A DNA stretch of 64,000 bases, from positions 1-64,000 of the forward strand of contig NZ_VIVL01000008.1 in the NCBI RefSeq assembly GCF_007828835.1, given 5' to 3'. The notes below the pieces were generated by a model that was not told where the DNA came from, searched no databases, and saw only the letters and a list, made by a program, of their open reading frames with translations. This DNA is from Variovorax beijingensis (GTDB lineage: Bacteria; Pseudomonadota; Gammaproteobacteria; Burkholderiales; Burkholderiaceae_C). The translations under genes and the position numbers were made by a program. This document shows positions 38,265 to 57,158 of this stretch, piece by piece (positions within the stretch are counted from its first letter, which is position 1; every line of letters starts with the position of its first letter).

Positions 38265-38328
38265 CGCGCCGGTAAAGCACCGCGCTTTCGCGCCCCGGAA
38301 AAGCCGGCATTTCTTTCTTGTTTGATTT

Positions 38329-38347: not shown

Positions 38348-38378
38348 GTTCTTCTGACACGACACTGAAAGGCCGACC

Positions 38379-39365: not shown

Positions 39366-39484
39366 CCACTCCAACCCGACAGAGCACTTTTGCCGAAACC
39401 CGCATCGACGCCGGCACACGGTCGACCACCGCCGATCGACGACCCGGACCCGGCGCCGCCGAGCGCCGTCTTACTCCACTTGCC

Positions 39485-40465: not shown

Positions 40466-40547
40466 CGAACCGTCGCATGAGATTCGACTCAATTCCTGGT
40501 CGGCACGACGCTGGCCATTTATGCACTAGAAGAAAATGAGAAATGTC

Positions 40548-41195: not shown

Positions 41196-41621
41196 CCGAT
41201 TCGCGCACGCGCTCATCGCCGAGCCGACGGACGAGCGTGATCGCCCCCGTCACGGCCATCGCGCCTGAACTGGGTTACGCGATTGCGAGTGCGCTCGTCG
41301 GCGTGTCTACCGCACCTTCGAAGAGACACGCGCATCCATCGGGTGCATCGCTGGCCCGCATGCACCTCTTGACTCTATTCAATTGTCGCGGCGCTGCGCG
41401 CGCGTCTTTCGGCGCAAGTCGATGTGCCGCTCGCAGGCGGTCAAGTTCAAGCGGCACTTGACGCCGCCCGCTCCGCTGGCGACTTCGTCCAGTTGCTGAT
41501 TTGGGCTAACGCGGGTGACACAGGCAAACGCACACTCGCCCTGCGCCCAGAGTTCGGCGCGACTTTCTTCAACCTGCCAGAGCCTCTGGCATTTGTGCGA
41601 TTTTCATCTGGCAGATCACCC
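41196..41621. other. 426-bp gene gap with an inverted repeat and a shared promoter-like element
   Basis: No complete gene is recognised between the GST and the aldehyde dehydrogenase. The aldehyde dehydrogenase frame is open back to about 41373 but the encoded extension is unlike the family. The gap contains the 49-bp element shared with the porin upstream region (41493-41541) and the perfect inverted repeat GCCAGAG-C-CTCTGGC (41576-41590), 31 bp before the start codon. Confidence 0.5.
41493..41541 (+). promoter_or_regulatory. Shared upstream element, copy A
   Basis: This element has three blocks, TTGCTGATTTGGGCTA (41493-41508), GGCAA (41523-41527) and ACACTCGCCC (41532-41541), that recur identically and at identical spacing at 57110-57158. 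It ends 80 bp before the aldehyde dehydrogenase ATG. Two operons in one cluster sharing such blocks suggests a common activator, perhaps the AraC protein at 58.8 kb. Confidence 0.5.
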
Positions 41622-43076
41622 ATGACCCTGCAACTGAATCACTTTATCGAGGGCGCTTTGGTCCCTGCCTCGGACCATGCCCGCATGAGCCTCGTCAGTC
41701 CTGTTGACGAACTGGAATATGCCACCGCAGCGCGCGGCACGTCCGAGGACGTGCAGCGCGCCGTAGCGGCTGCGCATGCCCAATTGGAAAGCGGCGCCTG
41801 GAAGCTACTCAGCGGAGCGCAACGCGGCCACCTGCTGAGCAAGCTGGCCGACCTCGTCGAACGCGACACTGCGCTGTTGGCCGACATGGATGCCAATGCC
41901 ATCGGACGCTCGCCGATGGAGCCCCGCATGATGGACGTTCCCAATGCCGTGGCCAACTTGCGTGCCGCAGCGGGCTGGGCCAACCACCTTGAAGGCCGCG
42001 CCATCCCTACGGGCGGCTATATGGGGAATCGGACGCTCTCATACACGATCCGGGAGCCGATCGGCGTGGTCGGTGCCATCCTGCCGTGGAACTCGCCCCT
42101 GATGATCACGACATGGAAGCTGGCCGCTCTGTTGGCGGCGGGCTGCACCGTGGTGGTGAAGCCGTCAGAGGAAACGCCCCAATCCGCGCTGCATCTGGCT
42201 CTCCTCGCGCAGGAGGCGGGCTTTCCCGACGGCGTGATCAACGTGGTCACGGGCTACGGTGAGGTGGTCGGCCGTGCGCTTTGCGAGCATCCCGACGTGG
42301 CGAAGATCAGCTTTACTGGAAGCCCCGAAGCGGGACGGGCCATCCAGCGCATCGCAGCTCCGTTGTTCAAGCGAATCACACTGGAACTGGGTGGCAAGAG
42401 TCCGCAGATCGTATTTGATGATGCCTCCATGGAGGAGGCACTGCGCGGCTGCGCCATGGGCCTGTTCGTGAATCAGGGGCAGGTGTGCGCGGCTGGATCG
42501 CGGATCCTCGTGCAGCACGGCATCGCCCGCGAATTCGCGGCTGCATTGGCGGAGGCGGCGAATTCCATCACCGTGGGGGATCCGCGCCAACCCGGTGTGC
42601 AGATGGGCCCAGTGGCCAAGAAGGCGCAGTTCGACCGTGTGAATCGCTACGTGCAGATTGGCCTCGACGAAGGCGCCGAACTCCTTGCCGGCGGTGTGTC
42701 GCAGCCTGAGAGAGGATGGTTCGTGAAGCCCACCATCTTCGCCAACGCAACAAACTCAATGACGATTGCGCGGGAAGAGATTTTTGGTCCCGTGGGGACG
42801 ATCATCGTCTTCGACACCGAGAAGGAAGCCATCGATCTGGCCAACGACTCCGCCTATGGCTTGGCCGCCACAGTGTGGACCAGCCACCTCGCGCGCGCTC
42901 ACCGCGTCGCAGCCGCCCTCAAGGTCGGAGCCGTTGGCGTGAATTGCTGGAGCCCTCTGGATGCGAACCTGCCATGGGGTGGACTCAAGACGAGCGGCAT
43001 TGGCCGCGAGGGCGGGTTGTCCGGTGCCCTCGCGTATACCGAAGAAAAGGTTGTCACCGTGCTGTTGCCAAACTGA
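41622..43076 (+). CDS. Aldehyde dehydrogenase
   Basis: The 484-residue enzyme starts MTLQLNHFIEGALVPASDHA and has AILPWNSPLMITTWKLAALL, Glu in LELGGKSPQIVFDDASMEEA, catalytic Cys289 in QGQVCAAGSRILV and GIGREGGLSGALAYTEEKVV at the end. It belongs to the phenylacetaldehyde/betaine-aldehyde side of the superfamily rather than the GabD side. It is preceded by the shared 49-bp element and followed 36 bp later by the cytochrome b561 gene. Confidence 0.88.
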   Translation: MTLQLNHFIEGALVPASDHARMSLVSPVDELEYATAARGTSEDVQRAVAAAHAQLESGAWKLLSGAQRGHLLSKLADLVERDTALLADMDANAIGRSPMEPRMMDVPNAVANLRAAAGWANHLEGRAIPTGGYMGNRTLSYTIREPIGVVGAILPWNSPLMITTWKLAALLAAGCTVVVKPSEETPQSALHLALLAQEAGFPDGVINVVTGYGEVVGRALCEHPDVAKISFTGSPEAGRAIQRIAAPLFKRITLELGGKSPQIVFDDASMEEALRGCAMGLFVNQGQVCAAGSRILVQHGIAREFAAALAEAANSITVGDPRQPGVQMGPVAKKAQFDRVNRYVQIGLDEGAELLAGGVSQPERGWFVKPTIFANATNSMTIAREEIFGPVGTIIVFDTEKEAIDLANDSAYGLAATVWTSHLARAHRVAAALKVGAVGVNCWSPLDANLPWGGLKTSGIGREGGLSGALAYTEEKVVTVLLPN

Positions 43077-43112
43077 CCTTGGTGCTGCAGCCAAAAGAAG
43101 AAGGAGCTTGCG

Positions 43113-43784
43113 ATGGGTTGGCGCAACAGAATCGACGCTTACGGAAATGCCTCAATGCTGTTCCATTGGTTCACAGCGGGGGCATTCATCACCGCCTATG
43201 TGATTGCGTACTATGTGATCTGGATAGTCGATCCGGAAACAAGTATCAAGCCGGCACTCTTCGGCATCGCTCCGGAGCCTGACCGGGTCATCCCGCTCCT
43301 CAATATCCACTGGATTCTGGGTATCTCCATCGGCGTGCTCACGCTGCCGCGGCTCGTCTGGCGGCTCTGGGGAGGCGTCCCCCACCACGTCCCCGGTTCA
43401 CGCCTGGAACATCTCGCCGCGGACGTGGCCCATTGGGCGCTGTACGCCTTCCTCATCCTTATGCCCGTGACAGGCTACATGACGACGTATCACCCGACTG
43501 ATTTCGGGCTCTTCGTGATTCCGGCATGTCGAGACACGGCCTTTGCGGCCTGGGTCCGGGACCTCTTCGGCCTGAGTGTCAAAGACCTGGAAGACATCAT
43601 GTGGTCGATTCACAGCTTCTGCGGCAAGTGGCTGGCATGGCCGCTGGTGGTGCTGCACGTCGCTGCGGCTCTTGTGCATCACTTCGTTCGCAAGGATGCC
43701 GTGCTGCGGCGGATGCTGCCGTTGAAGCCGCGACCCCAGGTCGTTCCGGCGCACGCCCACCCGGGAAAACGCTGCAACCCTTGA
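43113..43784 (+). CDS. Cytochrome b561-type membrane protein
   Basis: The 223-residue protein has four membrane helices with histidines in the expected heme positions: MLFHWFTAGAF in helix 1, NIHWILGISIGV in helix 2, ALYAFLILMPVTGYM in helix 3 and WPLVVLHVAAALVHHF in helix 4. It would pass electrons between the quinone pool and a periplasmic partner. AAGGAG precedes the ATG by seven bases. The neighbouring DUF6152 and DUF6644 genes suggest a redox function. Confidence 0.85.
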   Translation: MGWRNRIDAYGNASMLFHWFTAGAFITAYVIAYYVIWIVDPETSIKPALFGIAPEPDRVIPLLNIHWILGISIGVLTLPRLVWRLWGGVPHHVPGSRLEHLAADVAHWALYAFLILMPVTGYMTTYHPTDFGLFVIPACRDTAFAAWVRDLFGLSVKDLEDIMWSIHSFCGKWLAWPLVVLHVAAALVHHFVRKDAVLRRMLPLKPRPQVVPAHAHPGKRCNP

Positions 43785-43873
43785 TGTGCAAGAGCTCCGG
43801 CGCGGTTCGACCGGCCGATGCCCGGCGCGGAAACGGACGGGGTCAGAAGACCGGGGTCATGGAGGATCGTTTC

Positions 43874-45994
43874 ATGCAAGAAGCTCGGAACCTGCTGTTC
43901 CTATCCGTGGTGGTCTGCATTGCGCAGACCAGCTTGGCAGAGCCCTCTGTTGCTCAACTGCCCACCGTGCAGGTGACGGATACGCAGGCCGAGGCCGGCA
44001 GCACCCTGTCGCTCGATGCGCCCAACAGCACCGGCTCCCGCCTGGGCCTCACTGCACGCGAGACACCGGCCAGCGTCAGCCGTCTAGAGGCGGCCGACAT
44101 CGCCGAGCGTGATCTCACGCGTGCGCAGGACGTGGCCGTGCGCATGCCCGGCATCAGCGAAGCGCCCGCTCCGGGGAATGGCGGGACCAGCTTGATTGCG
44201 CGCGGCTTCGTCGGCCACAACTCGGTGGCCCAGTTGATCGACGGAACACGCCTCACCGTCGCAGCAGGCACCGTCACCTATCCCTTCTCGACCTGGCCCA
44301 TGGAGTCAGTCGAGGTCCTGCGAGGCCCTGCGTCGGTGCTCTATGGCGATGGAGCCATCGGCGCGGCTGTGAACTATGTGACCAAACGCCCCGGCTTCGA
44401 GCGCACCGAGCGCGAGGCCTTCCTGAGCGTTGGCTCCTTTGGCGCTGTGCAAGGGGGCGTGGGCCTGCGCGGCCCCATCAACGATGTGCTGGCTTATTCG
44501 GTCTACCTCGATGCAGAAAGAAGCGACGGCTATCGCCAGTTCATGGATGTGCAGCGCCGCAACTACGCGCTGGCACTGGCGGTGCGCGCGAGCCGCGACA
44601 TGAGCGTGACCCTCTCCCTCGACGGCGGCGTGAACGACGACGCGCGCTACTTTGGTACACCGCTGCGCAATGGTGTGTTGGACCAGCGGCTGCGCCGGAC
44701 GAACTTCAACGTCTCCGACTCAGTGGTCAAGTACAACGACCGCGTCTGGCGCGCCAAGGTGGACTATCAGGTCGCCGCCGGCCTTCGCCTGCGCAACGAG
44801 ACCTACCACCTCACCACCGCCCGGCACTGGCGCAACGCCGAGGACTACAGTTTCAGTACCCCGGGAACCAGCGTGGACCGCAGCGATTACCTGGAGATCC
44901 TGCACGACCAGGAGCAGACCGGCAACCGATTCGACGCGACCTTCGACGGCACGCTGGGCGGCTTGAAGAACCGCTTCATCGTGGGCCTGGACTGGTACCG
45001 TACCCGGCTCGTGCACACCAACAATTCGCCCTATGGGGGCGCCAGTGCGGGAGACCCCTACAACTTCGCGCCTGGCGTCTTCATCAGTCCTGTTCCCACC
45101 ATTCCGGGCCGCGCGTCAGAGCTGGAGACCACCGCCTTGTTTGCCGAGAACGCGCTCGACCTGAATCGGGAGTGGAGGCTCGTGGCCGGCCTGCGCAGCG
45201 ACCGCATGGAACTTCACAGCACGGACCTGCGCCGCGGCGTGAACCTGGTCAAGAAGTATTCGCCCATCACCGGCCGTCTTGGCGCCGTGTGGTCGCCCAG
45301 CGAGGCGCTCTCGCTCTACGGACAGTTCGGCACCGGCACCGACCCGCTTTCGGGCGCACTGTCGCTGCCCGGAGGCGGCAACACCTTCGATCTCACGAAG
45401 GGCCGCCAGGTCGAGGTAGGCGCCAAGGGCGCCGTGCCCGCCGTGCGCGGCGAATGGACGGTGGCACTGTACAAGATCGCAAAGCGCAACCTGCTCTCGC
45501 GCGATGCCGGCAATCCCAACGTCACGCAGCAGATCGGCCAGCAGTCGTCCACCGGCATCGAGCTGGCCTTCGCGGCCGAGCCCGTGCGCGGCTGGACGAT
45601 CGACGCCAATGCCGCCTTCCTGCGGGCGCGCTACGACGACTTCAGGGAACTGGTCTCGGGCGCCCTGGTCTCGCGCGACGGTATGACGCCCACCGGCGTG
45701 CCCGAGCGCACGGCCAGCATCTGGACAACGTGGCGCTTCCTGCCGCAATGGCAGTTGGGCTTCGGCGCGCGCTACGTGGGTGAGAGCCAGGGCAACACCG
45801 CCAACACCACGAAGCTGCCGTCGTACGTGGTACTAGACGCGTCGCTGGCCTACGAACATTCACCCAACCTCAGGTTCAGCCTGTCCGTGAAAAACCTGGC
45901 CAATCGCGACTACGCGCTGACAGGCACCGCCAATACAAGCTGGCTGCTGGGTACTCCGCGCACAGTGCAACTCACGGCGCGAGCGAGCTTCTGA
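43874..45994 (+). CDS. TonB-dependent outer-membrane receptor
   Basis: The 706-residue protein has a signal peptide, a plug domain with SRLEAADIAERDLTRAQDVA and MESVEVLRGPASVLYGDGAI, and a 22-strand-type barrel ending in LTARASF with the terminal Phe. GGAGG eight bases before ATG 43874 decides the start over the ATG at 43859. It resembles siderophore or metallophore receptors. Linked genes (metal ABC transporter, PepSY protein) point to uptake of a metal chelate. Confidence 0.9.
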   Translation: MQEARNLLFLSVVVCIAQTSLAEPSVAQLPTVQVTDTQAEAGSTLSLDAPNSTGSRLGLTARETPASVSRLEAADIAERDLTRAQDVAVRMPGISEAPAPGNGGTSLIARGFVGHNSVAQLIDGTRLTVAAGTVTYPFSTWPMESVEVLRGPASVLYGDGAIGAAVNYVTKRPGFERTEREAFLSVGSFGAVQGGVGLRGPINDVLAYSVYLDAERSDGYRQFMDVQRRNYALALAVRASRDMSVTLSLDGGVNDDARYFGTPLRNGVLDQRLRRTNFNVSDSVVKYNDRVWRAKVDYQVAAGLRLRNETYHLTTARHWRNAEDYSFSTPGTSVDRSDYLEILHDQEQTGNRFDATFDGTLGGLKNRFIVGLDWYRTRLVHTNNSPYGGASAGDPYNFAPGVFISPVPTIPGRASELETTALFAENALDLNREWRLVAGLRSDRMELHSTDLRRGVNLVKKYSPITGRLGAVWSPSEALSLYGQFGTGTDPLSGALSLPGGGNTFDLTKGRQVEVGAKGAVPAVRGEWTVALYKIAKRNLLSRDAGNPNVTQQIGQQSSTGIELAFAAEPVRGWTIDANAAFLRARYDDFRELVSGALVSRDGMTPTGVPERTASIWTTWRFLPQWQLGFGARYVGESQGNTANTTKLPSYVVLDASLAYEHSPNLRFSLSVKNLANRDYALTGTANTSWLLGTPRTVQLTARASF

Positions 45995-46023
45995 TCCGCG
46001 CCTGCTGTACAGCAGGCGCGGAT
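45994..46023 (+). terminator. Strong hairpin after the TonB receptor gene
   Basis: ATCCGCGCCTGCTG and its exact reverse complement are separated by TA, giving a 14-pair hairpin that begins on the last base of the stop codon. No T run follows, so termination would be atypical, but the stem is very stable and probably separates the aldehyde dehydrogenase-TonB operon from the next genes. Confidence 0.6.
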
Positions 46024-46164
46024 TGGGGAATTCCCTAGCCTCAGGACGAACTGCCGTTTTGGGCTAAGGCCACATCACGAAGCGGCCTAACCTTGGCATG
46101 CATCGCGATGGCGCAGTGGCATTTTGAGAGGCCACAGATCAATACAAGAGTGGAGACACCCGCA

Positions 46165-46557
46165 ATGAGACATCCGAGGTTATCGCCGTCCTCAATCAGA
46201 AGGCGCCTCGTGCTGGCAGTGATCGCATCGGGCCTGCTGCCATTGACTGCATCGGCACATCACTCCTTTGCCATTTTCGACAGAACCAAGACCACCGCGG
46301 TCAAAGGCCTCGTCGGTCGGTTCGACTGGACGAATCCCCACGTGACGATCTACGTGGATGCAGAGGGCACGCCGGCCCAGCGATACAAGGTCGAGACCGG
46401 AAGCATCAACGCCCTGGCCAGATCGGGCTGGAAATCCGATTCGATCAAGGTTGGCGACAAAGCAGAGGTGTCGTTTCACCCGCTGAAGAACGGTGATCCT
46501 GGAGGGTTGCTCATCGAGATCAAGATCGGCAGCGTGGTTCTGACGGGGGGAGGATGA
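46165..46557 (+). CDS. DUF6152 secreted protein
   Basis: The 130-residue protein has a signal peptide ending LTASA and a mature start HHSFAIFDRTKTTAVKGLVG, followed by FDWTNPHVTIYVDAEG and PLKNGDPGGLLI, the DUF6152 pattern. Cleavage after Ala would expose an N-terminal His-His, which could bind a metal. TGGAG precedes the start. A TTTTGGGCTA block at 46057-46066 upstream resembles part of the shared 49-bp element. Function is unknown. Confidence 0.82.
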   Translation: MRHPRLSPSSIRRRLVLAVIASGLLPLTASAHHSFAIFDRTKTTAVKGLVGRFDWTNPHVTIYVDAEGTPAQRYKVETGSINALARSGWKSDSIKVGDKAEVSFHPLKNGDPGGLLIEIKIGSVVLTGGG

Positions 46558-46618
46558 TGACGCGCCGCCCAGCCCTTTGTACTGAGACCGACGACGTCCG
46601 CCGGGTGGAGATATCGAT

Positions 46619-47386
46619 ATGACAATGACACGACGCTCTCGTGCGGGCTTGCTGGCCCTGTTCATCGCCGCAGCTGCCGCAGTGACGTTCATCGCCTCCG
46701 AACGCGGTGGTGGTCCTGCAGAAGCGCAGAAGCTCGGCATCAGCGGAACGTGGGAAAGAACACCGGACGACTGGTTTGGCGAGGATCCGGACAACCCTGT
46801 ATTGCCAGGCGGAAAGATCGACCTGAAAGAGCCCTTCCTCAGTGAATACGAGACGCTGAAGAAAAAGCAGGCTGAGGCCAACGAAGCCGGGACCCCGCTT
46901 GCCACAACGAGCAGCAAGTGCCTCCCGGAGGGAATGCCCACGCTGATGGCGGCGCTTTTTCCGATCGAGATTATTCAGAACAACAAGCAAGTGGTCGTGC
47001 TCGGCGAGTATCTCCAGCAAGTACGTCGCATCCTGTTGACCGAACCGATGCCGTCAAAGGACAACCTGGAGGCCACGTTCCAAGGGCAATCGCGCGGGCG
47101 GTGGGAGGGCGACACGCTCGTGGTGGAGACCCAAGGTATTCGGCCCGAGGCGCGGCTGTACGACGTTCCGCATGGGAAGGAAATGAAGATCACGGAGCGA
47201 ATCCGGCTCAAGGATCCCGATCATCTCGAGAACCAGATCGTGATCGAGGATCCGGAAGTTCTTAACGCGCCGTATCGCTTCACCTTCGAATACAAGAGGT
47301 CCGACTACAGGATCCAGGAATACGTCTGTGAGAACAACCAGATCGTGATCGACAGCGAGGGAAAGACCGCCCTTCGTCGCAACTGA
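46619..47386 (+). CDS. Secreted protein of a DUF6152-associated family
   Basis: The 255-residue protein has a signal sequence, KCLPEGMPTLMAALFPIEII and the characteristic SRGRWEGDTLVVETQGI, followed by TERIRLKDPDHLENQIVIED. Proteins with the GxWEGDTLVVxT motif often lie beside DUF6152 genes in aromatic- or steroid-degrading bacteria, with no known function. It lies 61 bp downstream of the DUF6152 gene. Confidence 0.65.
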   Translation: MTMTRRSRAGLLALFIAAAAAVTFIASERGGGPAEAQKLGISGTWERTPDDWFGEDPDNPVLPGGKIDLKEPFLSEYETLKKKQAEANEAGTPLATTSSKCLPEGMPTLMAALFPIEIIQNNKQVVVLGEYLQQVRRILLTEPMPSKDNLEATFQGQSRGRWEGDTLVVETQGIRPEARLYDVPHGKEMKITERIRLKDPDHLENQIVIEDPEVLNAPYRFTFEYKRSDYRIQEYVCENNQIVIDSEGKTALRRN

Positions 47387-47434
47387 CACCGCCGCCCTGC
47401 CCCCTCACTCCATCCCAAGAGCGGACGTACTGAA

Positions 47435-48940
47435 ATGAATTGGATCTCGAGCGGTCTGATGCGTGCCGTGCTGCAAAGCGCTTTGGTTTCGCTCAGCGTT
47501 TCCGGGCTGTCGTGGGCGGAGGTTCCCACCACGCCCACGATCGTGGCAGTCCCCCCCTCCGGCAAGGTGCCCTTGTCTTCGGCGCAGCGCAGGGGCACGG
47601 AGTACATCGACCTGGCGCGCCACGGGTATGTCGAAGAGGAGTACTACCTTTCGGGCATCGCGCCAGCCATCACCGCCGCAGGCGAGACGCTGCTGCAAGC
47701 CCCATATACCACGCGCATTCTCGTGCGCAAGCCGATCGACCCGGCACGCTTCAATGGAACCGTGGTGATCGAACCGTTCAGCTGGTTCGGCGAGCGTGGA
47801 GCCGGCTGGATCCTCACCCGCGACTACCTGCTGCGGCGAGGATACGCCTACGTCGGCTACACGCTGAACATCAACAAGCCAAAGCGTGATCCCAAGTTCA
47901 TCTCCGAAATGGCGGCGGAGGAAGCCGACGGCATCAGGCAGTACGGCCGGATCGTGAACTTCGACTTCATGCGCCGGTACGACTACGCACGCTACGCACC
48001 GCTGGGCACGTACTCCGATCCCGAGCGCTTCAAGCGCGGTAGCGTTGCCGATCCCTTCGTTCCGCAATCGCAGGCCATTGCGGCGCAGCTTGCGATGGCG
48101 TTGAAATCCAATGCGCCACAAGGTCCGCTCACCGGACTCGAAGTTCATCGCGTGTATGTCAACAGCTGGGCCGTGACGGCCCAGGTGTGGATGGACTATC
48201 TCGACCAAGGGCGTCACCAGCAATGGCGGATGCCCGATGGTGGTCCCCTGATCGACGCCTACATGACTGGCCGCATGGCCTACGGCGAAGTCGGGGGTGA
48301 CGCCATTCGCGTACCTCGCAAGATGCCCGACGGCGTGCCATTCGTGACGGTCTACAGCCAGTCCGAATTGATGCACGACGCGATCGAGGGCATCGAGCTG
48401 CCGCCGGACACGGACAGTCCGAAACTTCGCTACTACGAAGTGACCGGCATGCCGCATCTGCGCCTGGCGGACCTCGGCACGGAGCATTCAGAGCGGCTGG
48501 CCGCCGATGTCGGCAAAGGTCGCGATCCTCGCTGCCAGACCTTGTACGACGAGCCGGTCGAAATGCTTGCCTCGGCCTTGCTCGACGGCATGGACCGCTG
48601 GGTCCGCGAAGGTACAGCGATGCCCAAGGCGCCACGGGTGGCACGCAAGGGCAAATCGGTGCTGCGCGACCCCGCAACCGGCAACATGCTCGGCGGCGTC
48701 CGCCCCCCCTGGATCAGCGTGCCATCCAGCCGCTACATGACCGACCAGGAGACCCGCTGCGGCCTGATCTACGACACCAAGATTCCGTACTCGCGTACGC
48801 AGCTGCGCAAGCTCTACGGAACCGGTGAAATCTACGCAAAGAAGTTCGAGGAGGCCAAGGCGCTGTCTGTCAAGGAGGGTTATCTCCTTCCCGAAGACGC
48901 CGCGAGCTTGCGCCCGATCGCGAAGCCAGGTGACTTCTGA
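47435..48940 (+). CDS. Secreted alpha/beta-hydrolase-domain protein
   Basis: The 501-residue protein has a signal peptide ending near SWAEVP and the pattern of the alpha/beta hydrolase domain family of this length: GTEYIDLARHGYVEEEYYLS, TVVIEPFSWFGERGAGW, VYVNSWAVTAQVWMDYLDQG and YEVTGMPHLRL near the end with the likely catalytic His. The usual GxSxG elbow is replaced by NSWAVTA, so the nucleophile may be Ser in that motif. The substrate is unknown. It lies 48 bp after the preceding gene. Confidence 0.75.
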   Translation: MNWISSGLMRAVLQSALVSLSVSGLSWAEVPTTPTIVAVPPSGKVPLSSAQRRGTEYIDLARHGYVEEEYYLSGIAPAITAAGETLLQAPYTTRILVRKPIDPARFNGTVVIEPFSWFGERGAGWILTRDYLLRRGYAYVGYTLNINKPKRDPKFISEMAAEEADGIRQYGRIVNFDFMRRYDYARYAPLGTYSDPERFKRGSVADPFVPQSQAIAAQLAMALKSNAPQGPLTGLEVHRVYVNSWAVTAQVWMDYLDQGRHQQWRMPDGGPLIDAYMTGRMAYGEVGGDAIRVPRKMPDGVPFVTVYSQSELMHDAIEGIELPPDTDSPKLRYYEVTGMPHLRLADLGTEHSERLAADVGKGRDPRCQTLYDEPVEMLASALLDGMDRWVREGTAMPKAPRVARKGKSVLRDPATGNMLGGVRPPWISVPSSRYMTDQETRCGLIYDTKIPYSRTQLRKLYGTGEIYAKKFEEAKALSVKEGYLLPEDAASLRPIAKPGDF

Positions 48941-49007
48941 CGAGAAGCTCCATGGTCCCGGCCTGCCAGGCAAGCCAATCCTGATTCTTTTCATTGAAAG
49001 GCGACAG

Positions 49008-49496: not shown

Positions 49497-49535
49497 GTCG
49501 CCTCCTCTTTGACGCAACGCTCACCGGTACCTTCC

Positions 49536-50027
49536 ATGGTCATTCAATCCATCCTCCAAGCCGTTCAAGATTCCCGGCTTTCGACTTTCATCCGAGAGAC
49601 CGGTGTGGCATTTCCGGCGCTCGAGTCAGTGCATGTGATTGCGATCACGCTGGTGCTCGGAATCATTGCCATTGTGGATCTGCGGCTCATCGGCTGTGCC
49701 TCGCACCGCTGCAGCGCCCATCGGCTGATGCAAGAGCTGCTGCCATTTACCTGGGTGGCCTTCATCGCCTCCGTGGCGACGGGCCTGCTCATGTTCGCGT
49801 CGAATGCCACTACCTACGCCGAGAACAGCCTGTTCTGGTGGAAGATGACCATCCTGGTCTTCGCCGGCATCAACATGGCGATCTTCCATCTGGGCATCTA
49901 TCGCCGGATCGGCGAATGGGACGAACTGCTGCCGCCGCCGCGCGCGGCGCGCGCCGCGGGATTGAGCTCGATGGGGTTGTGGATCGTTGTGATTGTTCTC
50001 GGCCGATGGATAGGATTCTCCTCGTGA
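49536..50027 (+). CDS. DUF6644 membrane protein (second of a tandem pair)
   Basis: The product of about 163 residues repeats the DUF6644 layout: FPALESVHVIAITLVLGIIA, FTWVAFIASVATGLLMFAS, WWKMTILVFAGINMAIFHLG and GLWIVVIVLGRWIGFSS. A TTG start at 49509 would add nine residues; I prefer the ATG at 49536 by comparison with the first copy. The pair may form a hetero-oligomer. Its stop overlaps the next start (GTGA). Confidence 0.78.
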   Translation: MVIQSILQAVQDSRLSTFIRETGVAFPALESVHVIAITLVLGIIAIVDLRLIGCASHRCSAHRLMQELLPFTWVAFIASVATGLLMFASNATTYAENSLFWWKMTILVFAGINMAIFHLGIYRRIGEWDELLPPPRAARAAGLSSMGLWIVVIVLGRWIGFSS

Positions 50028-50800
50028 GCGCGGGAGGCAGTCTCGTGGGGCGCAGCATCCGGCGGGCGTTGGGTGACTCACCGGCCTTGAAAGGTGGGAG
50101 CGCTCGACTCTGGACCGTGCGTCCCCTCACCGGCAGGCTTGAAACGCTCATGATGCCTCTGCTGTTCGTGGCGATGGTCGGCAGCCTGGCAGGCTACGTG
50201 CTGTTGCGCCCCGCCCATCCTGCCCCCCCGAAACCCCTCAGCTGGCAGATCAGGTCCTTCGACGGCCTCGGGCCCGCCGACCAGGCCATTCACGGCGCGC
50301 TGCTGCCCGCCTCGGAAGAGATCATCTGGTTCAACAACGACACGGGCGGCTGGATCACCCTCGCGGACGCCCAGCGGACGCTGCTCCCGCCCTTCTATCA
50401 GGACACCTTCTGGAAGGCGAATGGGGAGGTGCATTGGCAATTGATCCTCCCCGGCGCTCACCAGCCCCATGCCAGCCAGCCCGGCGCAGAGAGCGGCCAT
50501 CGTGAGACGCCTGCCGCGGCGGCGCCGAACGCTGTGTCCGAAGGCACGCAGGGTCAGGGTGCCACCGTCTACTACGGCTCTGCTGGCAAGGCGCCGGCCC
50601 AAAGCGCCTACCTGCTGGTGATCGGACATGCGCACGCGGGGGTGATGTGGGCGAACCAGGCCACCATCTGGATCCATCCCGATGCCCTGGCGCCCTACCC
50701 CGAGATCGTCAAACCCGAAGCACTGGTCGCCAAGGGATGGCGGCAAGTCATCGCCTATAACGGCGCGAGTGAAGTCGAGCGCATCAAGGAGGCTCGATGA
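50024..50800 (+). CDS. DUF6162-like membrane-anchored periplasmic protein
   Basis: The product of about 258 residues from GTG 50024 has one membrane helix (MMPLLFVAMVGSLAGYVLLR) and a periplasmic domain with LSWQIRSFDGLGPADQAIHG, PPFYQDTFWKANGEVHWQLI and LLVIGHAHAGVMWAN. This fits DUF6162, whose genes accompany zinc/manganese-type ABC transporters. A His-rich stretch (GAHQPHASQPGAESGH) may bind metal. Its stop overlaps the substrate-binding protein start (ATGA), so it belongs to that operon. Confidence 0.6.
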   Translation: MSAGGSLVGRSIRRALGDSPALKGGSARLWTVRPLTGRLETLMMPLLFVAMVGSLAGYVLLRPAHPAPPKPLSWQIRSFDGLGPADQAIHGALLPASEEIIWFNNDTGGWITLADAQRTLLPPFYQDTFWKANGEVHWQLILPGAHQPHASQPGAESGHRETPAAAAPNAVSEGTQGQGATVYYGSAGKAPAQSAYLLVIGHAHAGVMWANQATIWIHPDALAPYPEIVKPEALVAKGWRQVIAYNGASEVERIKEAR

Positions 50801-51729
50801 CGGCCACGTCGAAGAAGCTTTCGCTGCGCCGGCGCGGGACGACGATGTGCCTGCTGCTTCTGGGGTGCGGATTGGTCGGCCCGGCACTGGCCGCGGGTAA
50901 AAAGCTCAAGGTGGGCGTCACCTTGCACCCCTACTACAGCTTCGTCGCCAACATCGTCGGAGACAAGGCAGAGGTGGTCCCGCTCATCGCGGGAGATGCG
51001 AATCCGCACAACTATCAGCCGCAGACGGAAGACATCACGCGTGCCATGTCACTCGATGCGCTGGTGGTCAACGGCATCGGGCACGACGAGTGGGCCTTCG
51101 AGATCGTCAAGGCAGCCGGACGCAAGGGGACGCTGCCGCTCATCTACGCCAATGCTTCGGTGGCGCTCATACCGATCGCGGGGGACCAGGGCGACGCCAA
51201 GGTCGTCAATCCCCACACCTTCGTGTCCACCACCGCGGCCATACAGCAAGTGTTCGAAATCACCCGGCGCCTGGGAGAGCTCGACCCGGACAACGCCGCC
51301 GCGTACCGGCGCAATGCCGCCGCCTATGCGGCGCGGATCCGGGGGCTGCGTGCGGAGTTCATGACCCGTTTTGCCAGTCTCGACCTGTCGTCGTTCCGAT
51401 GCGCCACGACACACGCGGGCTACGACTACCTGATGCAGGAGTTCGGCCTGACCGTGACGGCGGTCATCGAGCCGCGCCATGGCGTTGCGCCGACCGCGCG
51501 CCAGCTCGCCAACACGATCGATGCCATCAGGAAGGCGAACGTCCGCGTGCTCTTCGCTGAAAAATACTTCTCCATCGGCCTGGGCAAGCCAATCGAGGAA
51601 GCCACGGGCGTGAAGATCTTTGCGCTCTCTCACATCACCGGCGGACCGTACACCGCGGACCGGTTCGAAGTGGAGATGCGCGAAAACCTCCAAACTTTGG
51701 CCTCGGCCATCGAGTCCACGCGCCGTTGA
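50797..51729 (+). CDS. Metal ABC transporter substrate-binding protein (ZnuA-like)
   Basis: The 310-residue periplasmic protein belongs to the cluster 9 family of metal-binding receptors. It has KVGVTLHPYYSFVANIVGD, then H71 in GDANPHNYQPQTEDI, H140 in VNPHTFVS, H206 in CATTHAGYDYL and E255 in FAEKYFS, consistent with a metal site of three His and one acidic residue. It lacks the long His-rich loop of some zinc binders. Zn, Mn or another divalent metal is possible. It is the first transporter gene in the operon. Confidence 0.85.
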   Translation: MTATSKKLSLRRRGTTMCLLLLGCGLVGPALAAGKKLKVGVTLHPYYSFVANIVGDKAEVVPLIAGDANPHNYQPQTEDITRAMSLDALVVNGIGHDEWAFEIVKAAGRKGTLPLIYANASVALIPIAGDQGDAKVVNPHTFVSTTAAIQQVFEITRRLGELDPDNAAAYRRNAAAYAARIRGLRAEFMTRFASLDLSSFRCATTHAGYDYLMQEFGLTVTAVIEPRHGVAPTARQLANTIDAIRKANVRVLFAEKYFSIGLGKPIEEATGVKIFALSHITGGPYTADRFEVEMRENLQTLASAIESTRR

Positions 51730-51742
51730 AGGAGAAAGACCG

Positions 51743-52420
51743 ATGCGTGGCCCGGCCCTGGTATTCGAGCATGTCACCCTTCAGTTGGGTGGAACGCGTG
51801 TTCTGGACGACGTGACGTTCCGCGTCGAGGCCGGTGCGCTGCACTGCCTGGTCGGCCCGAACGGCGGCGGCAAGACCTCATTGGCCCGCGCCCTGTTGGG
51901 CCAGATGCCGCATTCGGGGCATATCCGCCTCGAAGGTGATGTGGTGGGTCCGATCGGCTACGTTCCTCAGTTGCCGGAGTTCGACCGCAACTTGCCGATG
52001 ACGGTAGATGACGTCATGGCGCTCCTCAGTCAGCGCAGGCCCGCCTTCATGGGCGCCTCCCGACCGGGCCGGGAAGCATGCACCGCGGCCCTGCAGCGAA
52101 CCGGCGTCCAGGTCTCAGGCAGGCGCCCCTTCGGAGCCCTCTCCGGCGGGGAGCGGCAGCGCGTCCTGTTGGCACAGGCCCTGACTCCGGCGCCATGGCT
52201 GCTGGTTCTTGACGAGCCCACCACCGGTGTCGACAGGCCGGGCATGCGGCTGCTCGAGGATCTGGTGGCCGAACTGCATGCGCGTGGGGTCACCATCCTG
52301 TGGATCAATCATGACCTGGATCAGGTGATGCGTCTCGCCCAGTGCGTGACCAGTATCAATGGTCAAGTCCTTTTCCATGGCTCTCCCGCCGAAGCACTCG
52401 ACTGGACGCATTTTCGGTAA
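51743..52420 (+). CDS. Metal ABC transporter ATP-binding protein (ZnuC-like)
   Basis: The 225-residue ATPase has Walker A GPNGGGKT at 38-45, the signature LSGGERQRVLLAQAL, Walker B LLVLDEPTTGVD and the switch His in LWINHDLDQV. AAGGAG precedes the ATG at 51743. It follows the substrate-binding gene by 13 bp and powers the adjacent permease. Confidence 0.9.
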   Translation: MRGPALVFEHVTLQLGGTRVLDDVTFRVEAGALHCLVGPNGGGKTSLARALLGQMPHSGHIRLEGDVVGPIGYVPQLPEFDRNLPMTVDDVMALLSQRRPAFMGASRPGREACTAALQRTGVQVSGRRPFGALSGGERQRVLLAQALTPAPWLLVLDEPTTGVDRPGMRLLEDLVAELHARGVTILWINHDLDQVMRLAQCVTSINGQVLFHGSPAEALDWTHFR

Positions 52421-52431
52421 GAGACCAGCCA

Positions 52432-53337
52432 ATGACGCCCGTATACGAATTCATTCGCAACCAGTTGCAGGCACTCGCCGAACGAGGTGCCTTGCCAGAG
52501 CCGTTCCAGTATGAGTTCCTGATCAATGCGCTGCTGTGTACGTTGCTGATCGGCCCGCTGCTGGGAGTGCTGGGCTCGATGGTCATGATCAAGCGGATGG
52601 CATTCTTCAGCCAGGCTGTCGGCAATGCAGCCATGACGGGCGTGGCCATCGGGGTGCTCATCGGCGAGTCCTACACGTCGCCCTATGTCTCGATGTTTGC
52701 CTTCTGCCTGCTGTTCTCTCTGACGCTCAAGTACGCACAGCACCGCACGACGTTGTCCAACGACATCCTGATCGGCGTCTTCCTGTCGATCTCGCTGGCC
52801 CTGGGGGCCTCGCTGTTGCTGTTCGTGTCCGCAAAGATCAATACCCACGTCATGGAAAGCGTGCTGTTCGGCTCCATCCTGGCGGTCGACCACACCGACA
52901 TGAACGTGCTGCTTGTCGTCACGGTGATCTGCGCCTGCATTGGACTGCCGATGTACAACGCGATGCTGCTGGCCAGCATCAACCCGAGCCTGGCACATGC
53001 AAGGGGCGTGCGGGTGCGCTTTGTGGATTATGTATTTGTCGCCATGGTCACGCTGGTGACCGTGGCCTGCCTGAAGATCATTGGTGCCGTGCTCGTCGAA
53101 GCTCTTCTTCTCATTCCGGCGGCGGCAGCCCGCAACGTCAGCCGCTCACTGGGTGAATTGGTCGCGCGCTCGGTCGCCATCGCGACGGTGTCCTGCGTGC
53201 TCGGCATCCTGCTGCCGATGCAGCTGCATATCCCGGTCCCCACGGGCGGGGCGATTGTCCTCGTCGCTGCGGCGATCTTCGTCTTTACCTCCGTCGTTCG
53301 AGCCCGCGCGCCCCGGTTCCGAAGCGCTGGCATCTAG
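52432..53337 (+). CDS. Metal ABC transporter permease (ZnuB-like)
   Basis: The 301-residue protein has eight to nine membrane helices with the family motifs LLGVLGSMVMIKRMAFFSQA, AMTGVAIGVLIG, SILAVDHTDMNVLLVVTVIC and LKIIGAVLVEALLLIPAAAA. It forms the channel of the metal transporter with the preceding ATPase. Eleven bases separate the two genes. Confidence 0.9.
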   Translation: MTPVYEFIRNQLQALAERGALPEPFQYEFLINALLCTLLIGPLLGVLGSMVMIKRMAFFSQAVGNAAMTGVAIGVLIGESYTSPYVSMFAFCLLFSLTLKYAQHRTTLSNDILIGVFLSISLALGASLLLFVSAKINTHVMESVLFGSILAVDHTDMNVLLVVTVICACIGLPMYNAMLLASINPSLAHARGVRVRFVDYVFVAMVTLVTVACLKIIGAVLVEALLLIPAAAARNVSRSLGELVARSVAIATVSCVLGILLPMQLHIPVPTGGAIVLVAAAIFVFTSVVRARAPRFRSAGI

Positions 53338-53347
53338 AGCGCACTCC

Positions 53348-54337
53348 ATGACTTTCCGAAACTGGTTGACGATCTTGGTGTTCGCGTGGGGCGCCCCTCT
53401 TGCGGCACATGCAGGCGCCGGCGGTGAAAAATGCCGCGTGCTTACGGCACTTCCTGCACTACACGCCCTCACCTCCGCCCTCACCGAAGGGACAGACATC
53501 GAAGCTATACGCCTGCCTGAAGGTGCTGCAGTGCCAATGGAAGCACAGGGCAACGCGCTCGCACGCTTGCAGGCCGACGCGTTCATGAAGGCAGAAGCGG
53601 TTGTCACGCTGCGCAACCTGTGGCGCGCGGACCCGCTGTACCCGACGGCGCGCCGGCACAACCTGCGCATCATCGAGATCGATGCATCGCGCTCGTGGGA
53701 TGCCGCGAAGCCGGGGTTGTCGGTGCTCGAAACACCAAGGAACAACGTCCCCTGGGTTGAGGCAGCTGGCCCGGATGCGGGGCCGTCGCCCTACGCTTGG
53801 CTCAGCCCCGACAACGGCATGCGCATGGCGGCACTGATCGCTGCCGACCTGGAGCGCTTGTCGCGTCCGGATGCCAACCGGATACAGCAGAACCTCGCCG
53901 CCTTCGAAGGGCGCTTGCGCCGATTGAAAGCCGAATATGGCGCACGCATGGCGGCGCAGCGCGACCCTCGCGTTCTTTCGCTGGCCAGCGAGTTCGCCTA
54001 CATGCTGGGCGACTTCGGCGTGTTCGTCGAAGGCTGGTATGTCAAACAGGATGTCGACTGGAGCGATGGCGATCGCTCGGCGCTGAGCCGCTACTTGCGC
54101 GAGCGAGACATTCGGCTGGTTGTCCACAAGTGGAAACCGGACGAGCGGATCGTCAAGGCCATCGAGAAAGGCGGCGCGCGGCTGCTGGTACTGGATGCGG
54201 GCAACCCCGGCATTCTCACCGACGAGGCCGGCGCCTACGAGGCCCTTCTGAGGTGGAACATGAATGCCTTGTCGACGGCTCTAGCAGAAACCGCCGGCGA
54301 CGCAATGAAAGACACGGACCGCTCGCCCCGGCGTTGA
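53348..54337 (+). CDS. Second ZnuA-like periplasmic protein with altered metal ligands
   Basis: The 329-residue protein has a signal peptide ending AHAGAG and the ZnuA fold order: VLTALPALHALTSALTEGT, PMEAQGNALARLQADAFMKA, PSPYAWLSPDNGMRMAALIA and LASEFAYMLGDFGVFVEGWY. At the places where ZnuA proteins have His (the HxYEPTP, DPHVWLSP and HxAFxY motifs) it has Pro-Met, Pro-Tyr and Glu-Phe, so a classical site is lost. It may bind a metallophore complex, act as a chaperone or be specialised otherwise. It lies 10 bp after the permease. Confidence 0.75.
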   Translation: MTFRNWLTILVFAWGAPLAAHAGAGGEKCRVLTALPALHALTSALTEGTDIEAIRLPEGAAVPMEAQGNALARLQADAFMKAEAVVTLRNLWRADPLYPTARRHNLRIIEIDASRSWDAAKPGLSVLETPRNNVPWVEAAGPDAGPSPYAWLSPDNGMRMAALIAADLERLSRPDANRIQQNLAAFEGRLRRLKAEYGARMAAQRDPRVLSLASEFAYMLGDFGVFVEGWYVKQDVDWSDGDRSALSRYLRERDIRLVVHKWKPDERIVKAIEKGGARLLVLDAGNPGILTDEAGAYEALLRWNMNALSTALAETAGDAMKDTDRSPRR

Positions 54338-54365
54338 GCGGCATGTGAATGAAGGAAAAGACTTG

Positions 54366-54686
54366 ATGAAGCCATTGCTCTCGCTTCGTGGGACGTCGGT
54401 TGCTGGAATTCTCTCCGCGTGCGCGGCGGCGCATGCGCATGCGCCCGTCCTTGACTGCTACATCAAACAAGACCAGGTGCAATGCGAAGCTGGTTTCTCG
54501 GACGGCAGTTCCGCCGCCGGGAAAAAAATCCAGGTGCTCGACGCCAGGAACAAGGTGCTGCTGGAGGGCGTCCTTGACAACGCCGGCACCTACGTATTCA
54601 AGCCACCAGGCGTCGATTACCACGTGGTCTTTCTCGGTGGCGACAACCACCAAACCACGCTGTACAGCTCCAACATCACCAAATGA
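54366..54686 (+). CDS. Small secreted protein with N-terminal His motif
   Basis: The 106-residue protein has a signal peptide ending near AAAHA, so the mature form could begin HAHAPVLDCYIKQD, a possible N-terminal metal site. The rest (KIQVLDARNKVLLEGVLDNA, GTYVFKPPGVDYHVVFLGGD) looks like a transthyretin-type beta-sandwich. It lies before a DUF4198 gene whose start overlaps its stop (ATGA). No named family is recognised. Confidence 0.65.
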   Translation: MKPLLSLRGTSVAGILSACAAAHAHAPVLDCYIKQDQVQCEAGFSDGSSAAGKKIQVLDARNKVLLEGVLDNAGTYVFKPPGVDYHVVFLGGDNHQTTLYSSNITK

Positions 54687-55522
54687 GGACTTTGATGAAC
54701 TTTCTTCGCCGAGCCGGAGTGCTCACGTTGGCCGGTTGCCTGGCCGCACTGCCCGTGCAAGCCCATTTTCAGACACTGTATGTCCAGGAGTCGACACTCG
54801 AACGCGGCACAGATCTGGAATTCGCGCTGGTGTTCACCCATCCCTTTCAAGGTGGACCCACGATGCCGATGGCAGAGCCGCGCTCCTTCAGCGTGACCAC
54901 CTACCGCGCCGGCGCGGAGCCGGTGAAGACCGATCTCAAGAAATACCTGCGCCCCGTCGAATGGAAAGCGGGTGGCCGGCGGGCCGCAGCGTTCCGGGCC
55001 TCCATCCCGCGAGAGGTGGTGCGCTCGCTCGGAGATCACGTGTTCGTACTCGAGCCCGAGCCCTATCTCGAGACAGAGGAAGACCTGTACATCCAGCAGT
55101 TCACCAAAGTCGTTGTGAATGTCGGCGGCGTGCCCAGCGGTTGGGCCAACACGCAGGGCCTTCCGGTCGAGATACAGCCCCTCACGAGACCGTACGGCAT
55201 CTGGACCGGCGGCGTTTTCCGCGCGATCGTTTTGTCGGACGGCAAGCCGGTCCCCTTTGCCCGCGTGGAGATCGAGTATCTGAACCACCCGGTCGATCTC
55301 AAGACGGGGGCATTCGGACGAAAGGCGCACGTGACGGCGCCTCATGCCGCATACGAACGCCTGAGCGTTGTCGCCGATACCGAAGGCGTCATCGCGGTCG
55401 GCTTGCCCAAAGCGGGATGGTGGGGCATTGCGGCCTTGGACATCGGTACCGCGAGAAGCCACAAGGGAAAGACCATGTCGCAGGACGCCGTGCTGTGGGT
55501 CCAGGTCAAGGACATGAAGTGA
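54683..55522 (+). CDS. DUF4198 family periplasmic protein
   Basis: The 279-residue protein has a signal peptide ending PVQA and a mature start HFQTLYVQES, the DUF4198 hallmark of an N-terminal His, followed by LEFALVFTHPFQGGPTMPMA, NVGGVPSGWANTQGLPVEIQ and RAIVLSDGKPVPFARVEIEY. Some DUF4198 proteins (NikK) assist nickel or cobalt uptake. In this operon a metal-delivery role is plausible. Two Ig-like domains are likely. Confidence 0.8.
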   Translation: MRTLMNFLRRAGVLTLAGCLAALPVQAHFQTLYVQESTLERGTDLEFALVFTHPFQGGPTMPMAEPRSFSVTTYRAGAEPVKTDLKKYLRPVEWKAGGRRAAAFRASIPREVVRSLGDHVFVLEPEPYLETEEDLYIQQFTKVVVNVGGVPSGWANTQGLPVEIQPLTRPYGIWTGGVFRAIVLSDGKPVPFARVEIEYLNHPVDLKTGAFGRKAHVTAPHAAYERLSVVADTEGVIAVGLPKAGWWGIAALDIGTARSHKGKTMSQDAVLWVQVKDMK

Positions 55523-55568
55523 CATCGAGTGGCAGATGCCCAAGAGGTCCCCCTGGGCGGCAAAGCTC

Positions 55569-57098
55569 ATGAAGCGCGCGCTGATCTTCGTTCACAAGTG
55601 GCTCGGCGTTGTCCTGGCGCTTTTTTTCCTGATGTGGTTTGCCTCCGGCATGGTGCTGCACTATGTGCCGTTTCCCAACCTGTCGCAGGTGGATCGGCTC
55701 GAAGGGCTCGAGCCGCTGCGGGTAGAGCCGGGCTGCTGCTTGACGGCGGAAGCGATCGCGCAGCGCGCCGGCATCGGCTTGGGCGCTGCAAGGCTGGGCA
55801 TGCACGCCGACGTGCCTGTCTGGCGCATCCTGGCCGGCGAGGCCGAGGGCCGCGCCCCCGTCTGGCGGACCTTCGACGCGGAAAGCGGCGCACCGGTCGC
55901 GCCGCTGACTGCGCAACAGGCCGCGCTGGTCGCCCAGGCCTTCAGCGGCCGCAAGGCTGTAGACACCGAGGAACTGGAGCGCGACCAATGGACGGTGCCG
56001 CAGGGACTCGATCCTTATCGTCCGCTGGTGAAGGTCAGGCTGGCCGGCGACGACGGCCTTGAGTTATATGTGTCACGCGGCAGCGCCGAAGTGGTTCGAG
56101 ACACGCGCCGGGCCGAGCGTTTCTGGAACTGGATCGGCGCGGTGCCGCACTGGATCTACCCGACAGTGTTGCGCCAGTTTCCGCAGGCGTGGAACCAGGT
56201 CGTGGTCTGGCTGTCGATTCCGGGCGTGGTGCTTGCTGCCACCGGGCTTGCGCTGGGCATCTGGCAGATCTTCCTGAATCGCACCCGCTGGATTCCCTAT
56301 CGCAAGTTCTGGATGCGATGGCATCACATCGCGGGCCTTGTGGCCGCAGTCTTCACGCTGACGTGGATGTTCTCGGGCTTGATGTCGATGAACCCGTACG
56401 GCGTTTTCGGTCCGCGCAGTGCCCTGCCTTCCGAGCAAGCGCGTTGGTTCGGTGCGCCATCGGTCGCACAGCTTCAACCGCGCGACGCACTTGCCGCGCA
56501 TGCCCGAAGCTCGCCGAACGCCGACGCCCTGGAACTTGAGCGTGTGCAGTTTGCAGGGCACACCTGGTATCGCGTCCATACCCGCGTGGGTCAAAGCGTA
56601 ATGCGCGCCGATGCCGCCGCGCCGGCTCCGGTGTTGCACGCCAGGTTTCCTGAGGAAGAGATCGCGCGGGCGCTGGGAGGCATCCGGGGCGCCGGGCATG
56701 TTCCGGTCGAGTTGCGGCGGATCGACGCCTACGACAGCGCCTACTACGCGCAGAACGCCGCGTCCTCCGACGTACGGGATACGCGTCCGCTGCCGGTGTG
56801 GCGAGCCCGATGGGCGGACGGGATCGACCTGTATGCGGATCCGCTGTCGGCCAGGGTGCTGCTGCGTATCGTCCCCTCGGGCCGCTGGCAGCGTGTGCTG
56901 TACCAGGGCATGCACAGCCTGGACTTCGAGGCATTGCGCAACCGGCCGTTGGTGCGCGACGGCGTCGTGATGATGCTGTCGCTTCTCGGCCTTGCGCTGT
57001 GCATCACGTCGTGCGTGATCGGTTGGCGAATTTTCGCGAGCAAGGTCAGGCCGCGCCGCATGCCCAAGCTCGATGAGCCCTGGTCGCCATCTTCTTGA
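55569..57098 (+). CDS. PepSY-domain membrane protein
   Basis: The 509-residue protein has the PepSY_TM arrangement: an N-terminal helix KRALIFVHKWLGVVLALFFL, a periplasmic region, helices VVVWLSIPGVVLAATGLALG and WHHIAGLVAAVFTLTWMFSG, a second periplasmic PepSY-like region and a C-terminal helix GVVMMLSLLGLALCITSCVI. Such proteins include reductases acting on ferric or metal-siderophore complexes. Histidines in helices could hold heme. It closes the metal operon. Confidence 0.8.
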   Translation: MKRALIFVHKWLGVVLALFFLMWFASGMVLHYVPFPNLSQVDRLEGLEPLRVEPGCCLTAEAIAQRAGIGLGAARLGMHADVPVWRILAGEAEGRAPVWRTFDAESGAPVAPLTAQQAALVAQAFSGRKAVDTEELERDQWTVPQGLDPYRPLVKVRLAGDDGLELYVSRGSAEVVRDTRRAERFWNWIGAVPHWIYPTVLRQFPQAWNQVVVWLSIPGVVLAATGLALGIWQIFLNRTRWIPYRKFWMRWHHIAGLVAAVFTLTWMFSGLMSMNPYGVFGPRSALPSEQARWFGAPSVAQLQPRDALAAHARSSPNADALELERVQFAGHTWYRVHTRVGQSVMRADAAAPAPVLHARFPEEEIARALGGIRGAGHVPVELRRIDAYDSAYYAQNAASSDVRDTRPLPVWRARWADGIDLYADPLSARVLLRIVPSGRWQRVLYQGMHSLDFEALRNRPLVRDGVVMMLSLLGLALCITSCVIGWRIFASKVRPRRMPKLDEPWSPSS

Positions 57099-57109
57099 AT
57101 TCCTCGCGA

Positions 57110-57158
57110 TTGCTGATTTGGGCTACCACCCCACCCACGGGCAACAGGACACTCGCCC
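57110..57158 (+). promoter_or_regulatory. Shared upstream element, copy B
   Basis: The same three blocks as copy A recur here: 16 identical bases at 57110-57125, GGCAA at 57140-57144 and ACACTCGCCC at 57149-57158, with identical spacing. It begins 12 bp after the PepSY gene and ends 120 bp before the porin ATG. A shared activator site or promoter is the simplest reading. Confidence 0.5.

Follow-up and report, generated by a model that had tools for sequence, protein, structure and literature searches.

Among the closest described counterparts of the element analysed here, a sequence of 49 base pairs (bp) that occurs twice in a 64,000-nucleotide stretch of Variovorax beijingensis DNA (hereafter the window, meaning the whole stretch), is the binding site of XylS at the Pm promoter of pWW0. 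According to the available part of PMC4225500, XylS binds two direct repeats of the form TGCA-N6-GGNTA, the second of which overlaps the -35 region by two bases. The core of the element, TGC-N7-GGG-T-A, resembles this half-site as it is given in the available parts of PMC4225500 and PMC1360089. In both systems a TGC and a GG-TA block lie ten bases apart at the -35 position, with about 21 bases to the -10 region. At Pm, the promoter-near half-site TGCAAAAAATGGCTA is followed after 21 bases by TAGGCT, which we take to be the -10 hexamer. The two systems differ in that Pm consists of two direct repeats 21 bases apart, both of which are found by the same kind of search, whereas only one copy is detectable in the element. 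The regulator proposed here, an AraC-type protein of 321 amino acids, shares 40% identity with XylS over 86 residues of the DNA-binding domain only; the target genes and the sequence of the N-terminal domain are different, and so presumably is the ligand. The BenR-type promoter Pben of P. fluorescens likewise carries XylS-type half-sites (TGCG/TGCA-N6-GGATA) directly upstream of the -35 region; in the available part of PMC1360089 there are two of them, 5 bp apart, and the genes belong to a benzoate pathway.

A further known system is EutR, the regulator of ethanolamine use, which responds to ethanolamine with adenosylcobalamin. It binds just upstream of the -35 region, as stated in the available part of PMC5821096. 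EutR is the best NCBIfam match of the AraC protein over nearly its whole length (E 5.9e-33), but the score of 114.4 bits lies below the family cut-off of 319 for curated EutR proteins, and the window proteins that were scanned included no recognisable ethanolamine ammonia-lyase or microcompartment proteins. At the eutS promoter of E. coli K-12 (L157:20863), a weak look-alike of the site, TTGCCGAATTTTGTTA, is found where EutR would be expected to bind. It is equalled in 208 of 20000 promoter shuffles and outscored at three other places in 25 kb, and is too weak to be used as proof. With respect to gene content, the histamine genes of Pseudomonas (hinDAC, with the regulator HinK) combine an APC transporter, an aminotransferase and an aldehyde dehydrogenase under a dedicated regulator, as the locus studied here appears to do. 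HinK, however, is a LysR-type protein in the part of PMC8231116 available, and the likeness is one of gene types.

Compared with these systems, the 49-bp element is very probably a class-II operator-promoter of the EutR-like AraC protein encoded at 58776-59741, which would act at five or more promoters of the window and thereby control a regulon for the use of an amine. The type of mechanism is ordinary and well known, while this particular circuit seems undescribed; no description of the regulon was found in searches of an open-access library.

Sites in the window and promoter anatomy

The putative promoters and the associated genes are listed below in window coordinates.

19639-21111, minus strand: APC-type amino-acid/amine permease gene, with orthologs at 74-77% in Variovorax/Acidovorax relatives
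21201-21206, minus strand: -10-like hexamer TAGACT, offset 22 after the operator
21229-21244, minus strand: putative AraC-type operator TTGCCGATCCGGGATA, 117 bases before the permease gene
41493-41508, plus strand: putative AraC-type operator TTGCTGATTTGGGCTA before the genes for aldehyde dehydrogenase (ALDH) and cytochrome b561; V. paradoxus 110B and other genomes have orthologous sites before their ALDH genes
41531-41536, plus strand: -10-like hexamer CACACT, offset 22 after the operator
41622-43076, plus strand: ALDH gene, phenylacetaldehyde-dehydrogenase-like, start corrected
43113-43784, plus strand: cytochrome b561 (Ni_hydr_CYTB) gene, downstream of ALDH
46051-46066, plus strand: putative AraC-type operator CTGCCGTTTTGGGCTA before the DUF6152 operon; Pseudomonas orthologs carry TTGCCGTTTTGGGCTA and variants
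46088-46093, plus strand: -10-like hexamer TAACCT, offset 21 after the operator
46165-46557, plus strand: DUF6152 gene, first in a same-strand gene run up to about 57098
57110-57125, plus strand: putative AraC-type operator TTGCTGATTTGGGCTA before the porin gene, with orthologs in Pseudomonas
57148-57153, plus strand: -10-like hexamer GACACT, offset 22 after the operator
57279-58586, plus strand: outer-membrane porin gene (Alginate_exp, Pfam PF13372)
58776-59741, minus strand: AraC/XylS-type regulator gene, 321 amino acids, EutR-like, proposed reader of all five sites
61574-62950, minus strand: class-III aminotransferase gene, ATG at 62950
63096-63101, minus strand: -10-like hexamer CAACAT, offset 21 after the operator
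63123-63138, minus strand: putative AraC-type operator TTGCCGATTCGGGCTA before the aminotransferase gene; the identical 16-mer precedes the V. paradoxus 110B ortholog

An earlier note on this DNA had reported three blocks, identical and identically spaced, at 41493-41541 and 57110-57158 (both plus strand), with differing bases in between. Both statements are confirmed, and the two copies have no resemblance outside the three blocks. The exact 16-mer TTGCTGATTTGGGCTA has its only two occurrences in the genome of 6,940,936 bases at 41493 and 57110, and in both copies ACACTCGCC comes 23 bases after it. The weaker match of 13 of 16 bases at 46051-46066 is likewise present as described, differing at 3 of 16 bases. 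Two further sites, absent from the earlier note, are located on the minus strand at 63123-63138 and 21229-21244. A matrix built from the aminotransferase promoters of other genomes recovers exactly five window sites of at least 8 bits, namely 21229 (minus), 41493, 46051, 57110 and 63123 (minus). At up to 3 mismatches, the three-block composite was never matched in 100 dinucleotide shuffles of the window, and none of 100 such shuffles yielded four matches to the 16-mer. In the whole genome the 16-mer has 14 matches at this tolerance, 4 of them inside the window; the backward-read pattern has 5. For the conserved pattern TGCYNNTTYGGGHTA there are 6 matches, 4 of them inside the window, against 1 for the backward control. 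Only two matches (contigs C4 and C6) are outside, within long open frames of 222 and 450 amino acids; the many matches in unrelated coding regions that would have spoken against a regulatory element are not seen.

The anatomy was derived from 69 dereplicated promoters, including four of the window. They belong to four classes, and their sites score at least 12 of 16. Their core reads TTGC(C/T)GATT(T/C)GGG(C/T)TA, followed by (A/C)CG; it is asymmetric and consists of two blocks. In a hexamer 22 bases past the 16-mer, A occupies the second place in 84% and T the sixth place in 81% of the promoters. The pattern xAxxxT is found at this offset in 56 of 69 promoters, the next best offset having 14. 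We note that the conservation of the 16-mer stems partly from the selection of sites; that of the hexamer does not. The third block of the earlier note corresponds to most of this -10-like hexamer plus its right flank. The middle block GGCAA, in contrast, is not conserved: it appears in none of the four promoter-class consensuses built with other genomes, and that both window copies share it is probably due to chance. No TTGACA-like sequence or other -35 consensus is found at the respective place in the promoter-class consensuses. With an operator that abuts or overlaps the -35 position, a fixed distance to the -10-like hexamer and a poor -35 region, the promoters have the geometry of the class-II activator-dependent type.

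In the proposed mechanism, the operator is asymmetric and 16-19 bases long, and a weak -10 hexamer lies 21-22 bases further on. In the presence of its ligand, perhaps an amine or a breakdown product, the AraC protein would bind exactly at the expected -35 position and would recruit the sigma-70 RNA polymerase, as XylS does at Pm. At least five promoters would then be switched on together, those of the permease gene, the ALDH and cytochrome b561 genes, the DUF6152 operon, the porin gene and the class-III aminotransferase gene.

Occurrence in other genomes and association with the AraC gene

When 84,980 species genomes were scanned with the AraC protein, 56 named loci were obtained, which come from Pseudomonas, Variovorax, Paracidovorax and other Acidovorax relatives, Curvibacter, Herbaspirillum and Paraburkholderia. 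Each of the 56 has at least one site of at least 14 bits, and 34 contain the 16-mer at up to 2 mismatches. With respect to the consensus, all 44 aminotransferase promoters score at least 13 of 16 (42 score 14), and 14 of 15 DUF6152 promoters reach 13. A score of 14 is reached by 15 of 28 porin homologs, the other 13 peaking at 9-10 and being mostly copies elsewhere in the loci, and by 13 of 55 ALDH genes. In most of the remaining 42 ALDH cases an aminotransferase gene is located directly upstream, hence ALDH is not the first gene of the operon.

The gene classes were also scored, at a threshold of 12 bits, with a weight matrix whose only training set was the 44 aminotransferase promoters from other genomes. 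Sites are detected before 48 of 53 permease genes, 11 of 11 porin genes (at least 56% identity), 14 of 15 DUF6152 genes and 13 of 55 ALDH genes, as well as before all 44 aminotransferase genes of the training set. In nine control gene classes (AraC, 56 genes; IclR1, 14; two cytochrome b561 queries that may overlap, 9 and 39; Abhydrolase_10, 17; the gene at 46619, 15; two DUF6644 classes, 13 each; DUF1302, 12) there are none among 188. Over 1.11 Mb the matrix has 172 matches, compared with a mean of 3.8 and a maximum of 24 for 40 column-permuted matrices; among 100 permuted matrices, individual ones attained fractions of 0.69, 0.21 and 0.21 within one gene class. The 56 loci hold 147 sites of at least 18 bits, 130 of which precede six gene classes: aminotransferase (48), permease (37), porin (15), DUF6152 (14), ALDH (13) and an enzyme dependent on thiamine pyrophosphate (TPP; 3). 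The Pseudomonas counterpart of the permease (L085:11259-12704) is assigned to AA_permease_2.

The sites are thus found before orthologs of the ALDH, porin, DUF6152, permease and aminotransferase genes in other genera, which indicates that they are old and held by selection. Pseudomonas has the DUF6152 operon and the porin gene in divergent orientation, with one site for each in the gap between them. In the window the two lie about 11 kb apart, both on the plus strand; the sites therefore follow their genes through rearrangement. The suggestion of the earlier note that the element is a shared operator or promoter gains from the fixed distance to a -10-like hexamer and from the occurrence of sites before orthologous genes in Pseudomonas, Variovorax, Acidovorax relatives and Herbaspirillum.

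Among 60 relatives, the exact 16-mer is present in two (G009 and G010), the only two with an AraC ortholog of 70-73%; in both it precedes the ALDH ortholog (84%), and TTGCCGATTCGGGCTA precedes the aminotransferase ortholog (79%). As the 56 loci were gathered via the AraC protein, a reverse test was needed. In 220 family genomes, searched for the exact site TTGCYGATTYGGGYTA and for AraC matches with E up to 1e-50, the site occurs in 9 genomes and the AraC match in 5. Of the 5 genomes that carry the AraC gene, 4 have the site, as compared with 5 of 215 non-carriers (Fisher test, 6.5e-6); if the genome of the window is left out, the figures are 3 of 4 versus 5 of 215 (1.3e-4). The carrier G273 has sites before the ALDH and aminotransferase orthologs; in G264 the site precedes the aminotransferase ortholog, with the AraC gene 22 kb off. 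In G182, whose AraC homolog has 40% identity, the site is situated directly where the AraC gene starts and points away from it. No catabolic or porin ortholog was found within about 4 kb on each side (less at contig ends) of the 5 non-carrier sites. The pattern xAxxxT at offset 22 is seen in 3 of 4 carrier sites and in 2 of 5 non-carrier sites, so this criterion alone cannot part the two groups. In another genome (G014), a 40% homolog is separated from an unrelated divergent gene by a site with CACACT at offset 22. The homologs of G014 and G182 adjoin a site without catabolic genes, which ties the site to the regulator. Candidates of 19.4 and 15.1 bits accompany the homolog of G027 and a second homolog of G014, respectively (AraC homologs of at most 40%). 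The AraC protein at 58.8 kb, named in the earlier note as a possible reader, is hence a good candidate: the site goes with its gene in other genomes, and its proposed binding there is well supported by this linkage and by the form of the site.

Evidence against the proposed regulator and competing explanations

Several observations weigh against the AraC protein as the reader. Since similarity to the AraC protein was the basis for choosing the 56 loci, their agreement alone cannot separate this protein from another linked regulator. The carrier G259 (64% AraC) lacks the exact site, and 5 non-carriers have one. For the homolog of G048 and one homolog of G007 (28-32%) there is no nearby site of at least 8 bits; the other G007 homolog has one site of 10.5 bits. 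In none of the 56 loci does a site precede the AraC gene itself. Within the site, the fourth base of the A-box is C or T in the consensus (TGCY) and not A as in TGCA, and no distal half-site is detected 20-22 bases upstream (offset -21, z 0.73), unlike at Pm. Finally, 17 of the 147 strong sites have no regulon-gene assignment, because the downstream genes are outside the query set or of another kind.

The missing site at the AraC gene would also be expected if that gene were a bystander and the element were the operator of another cluster-linked regulator, such as the IclR-type protein (PcaR/PobR-like) at 33.7 kb, the ortholog of which (IclR1) is close to the aminotransferase gene in several genomes. 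We consider this unlikely, as an IclR1 ortholog of at least 55% is present in only 14 of the 56 loci, all of which have a site of at least 14 bits, and the 40% AraC homologs of G014 and G182 keep the site with no other cluster genes seen beside them. IclR operators are usually palindromic, whereas the asymmetric site with its two major-groove blocks is in the style of AraC/XylS proteins. Still less probable are ordinary sigma-70 or alternative-sigma promoters conserved through contacts with RNA polymerase. These would account for a -10-like hexamer at fixed spacing, but the conserved 16-mer greatly exceeds a -35 hexamer in length, contains no TTGACA and is nearly confined to this gene set, with 2 exact copies in 6.94 Mb. 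Hardly any weight can be given to a recent duplication or a mobile repeat that travels with the genes. The two copies in the window agree at all 16 bases, yet their flanks are dissimilar, which counts against a duplicated or mobile piece, and each type of site precedes the orthologous gene in other genera; the mobile repeat that the earlier note had considered as a refutation is thus not realised. A chance resemblance picked from a large window is just as improbable: the GGCAA block would fit such an origin, but shuffles, control pattern counts, permuted matrices and control genes contradict it for the element.

The AraC protein and the putative function of the regulon

The protein encoded at 58776-59741 is a regulator of the AraC/XylS family. 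Its C-terminal domain carries two helix-turn-helix motifs (Pfam HTH_18, 69.1 bits at a cut-off of 33.6). The predicted structure (predicted local distance difference test score, pLDDT, 89.6) has a cupin-like barrel in residues 2-116, followed by helices and the two helix-turn-helix motifs. Foldseek relates the N-terminal domain to the regulatory domains of BgaR, RhaR and AraC (E 3e-4 to 1.4e-3, TMt 0.46-0.54); no Pfam ligand-domain model matches the protein.

The permease, aminotransferase and ALDH genes together look like a set by which an amine would be taken up and transaminated to an aldehyde, which would then be oxidised to an acid. The best NCBIfam models for ALDH are phenylacetaldehyde dehydrogenases, with StyD at 646.1 bits below its cut-off of 800. 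The closest solved structures are betaine-aldehyde and retinal dehydrogenases for ALDH, and gamma-aminobutyrate transaminases together with an enzyme of a hyperthermophile for the aminotransferase. Neither comparison decides which substrate the trio uses. As the alignments of ALDH with its orthologs begin at the ATG at 41622, this codon is a more likely start than the GTG at 41424. Among openly licensed papers, no paper on an octopamine or phenylethanolamine pathway of this kind was found by title.

The DUF6152 gene is followed by genes for Abhydrolase_10, two DUF6644 proteins (one with a sub-threshold CopD match), DUF6162, ZnuA-like metal-binding proteins, DUF4198 and PepSY_TM. The order of this run (46165-57098) is partly kept in Pseudomonas, and, judging by its content, the response may include metal uptake; on DUF6152 nothing was found in openly licensed papers. 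A more far-reaching interpretation, which we put forward tentatively and hold to be somewhat doubtful, is an undescribed EutR-like AraC subfamily with a single-site class-II promoter and a regulon conserved in Variovorax, Acidovorax relatives, Herbaspirillum and Pseudomonas, which would catabolise an unnamed, perhaps aryl-substituted amine and would have its own porin and metal-uptake module. If so, the pathway would need a metal cofactor imported on demand by the DUF6152 operon with its ZnuA-like, DUF4198 and PepSY proteins. The motif is short and can be scanned for in any genome. It ties DUF6152, DUF6644, DUF6162, Abhydrolase_10 and DUF4198 to one putative regulator and to an amine-type catabolic trio across beta- and gammaproteobacteria, so that families of unknown function become members of a testable pathway, and it offers a candidate inducible promoter for Variovorax and Pseudomonas.

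The membership of the regulon differs in part from the single regulon proposed earlier. The idea of a common regulon is supported, with the permease (19.6-21.1 kb) and the aminotransferase (61.6-63.0 kb) as additional members; the IclR, Bug, cyclase and GST genes at 33.6-41.2 kb have no site of at least 8 bits in the matrix scan of the window and were rejected as members. The latter genes (33663-41195) form a second catabolic block among the regulon genes, with two IclR-type regulators (PcaR/PobR-like), three Bug-type binding proteins, two glutathione S-transferases (GST) and a cyclase-like gene. Between the cytochrome b561 gene and the DUF6152 operon lies a gene for a TonB-dependent receptor (43526-45994), for which the 56 loci yielded no ortholog at E 1e-20.

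Two further observations concern Herbaspirillum. At the 12-bit threshold of the matrix, a site precedes 3 of 14 genes for the TPP-dependent enzyme, and these are the three Herbaspirillum loci (L118:11994, L119:11858 and L120:11863); the enzyme, which is similar to the one at L113:12125, may add a decarboxylase to the regulon in this genus. In Herbaspirillum sp. SJZ106 a second AraC gene (57% identity, L120 5219-6166) has sites on both sides (L120:4700 and L120:6217), one of them before a permease gene, and this is a duplicated regulator with sites of its own.

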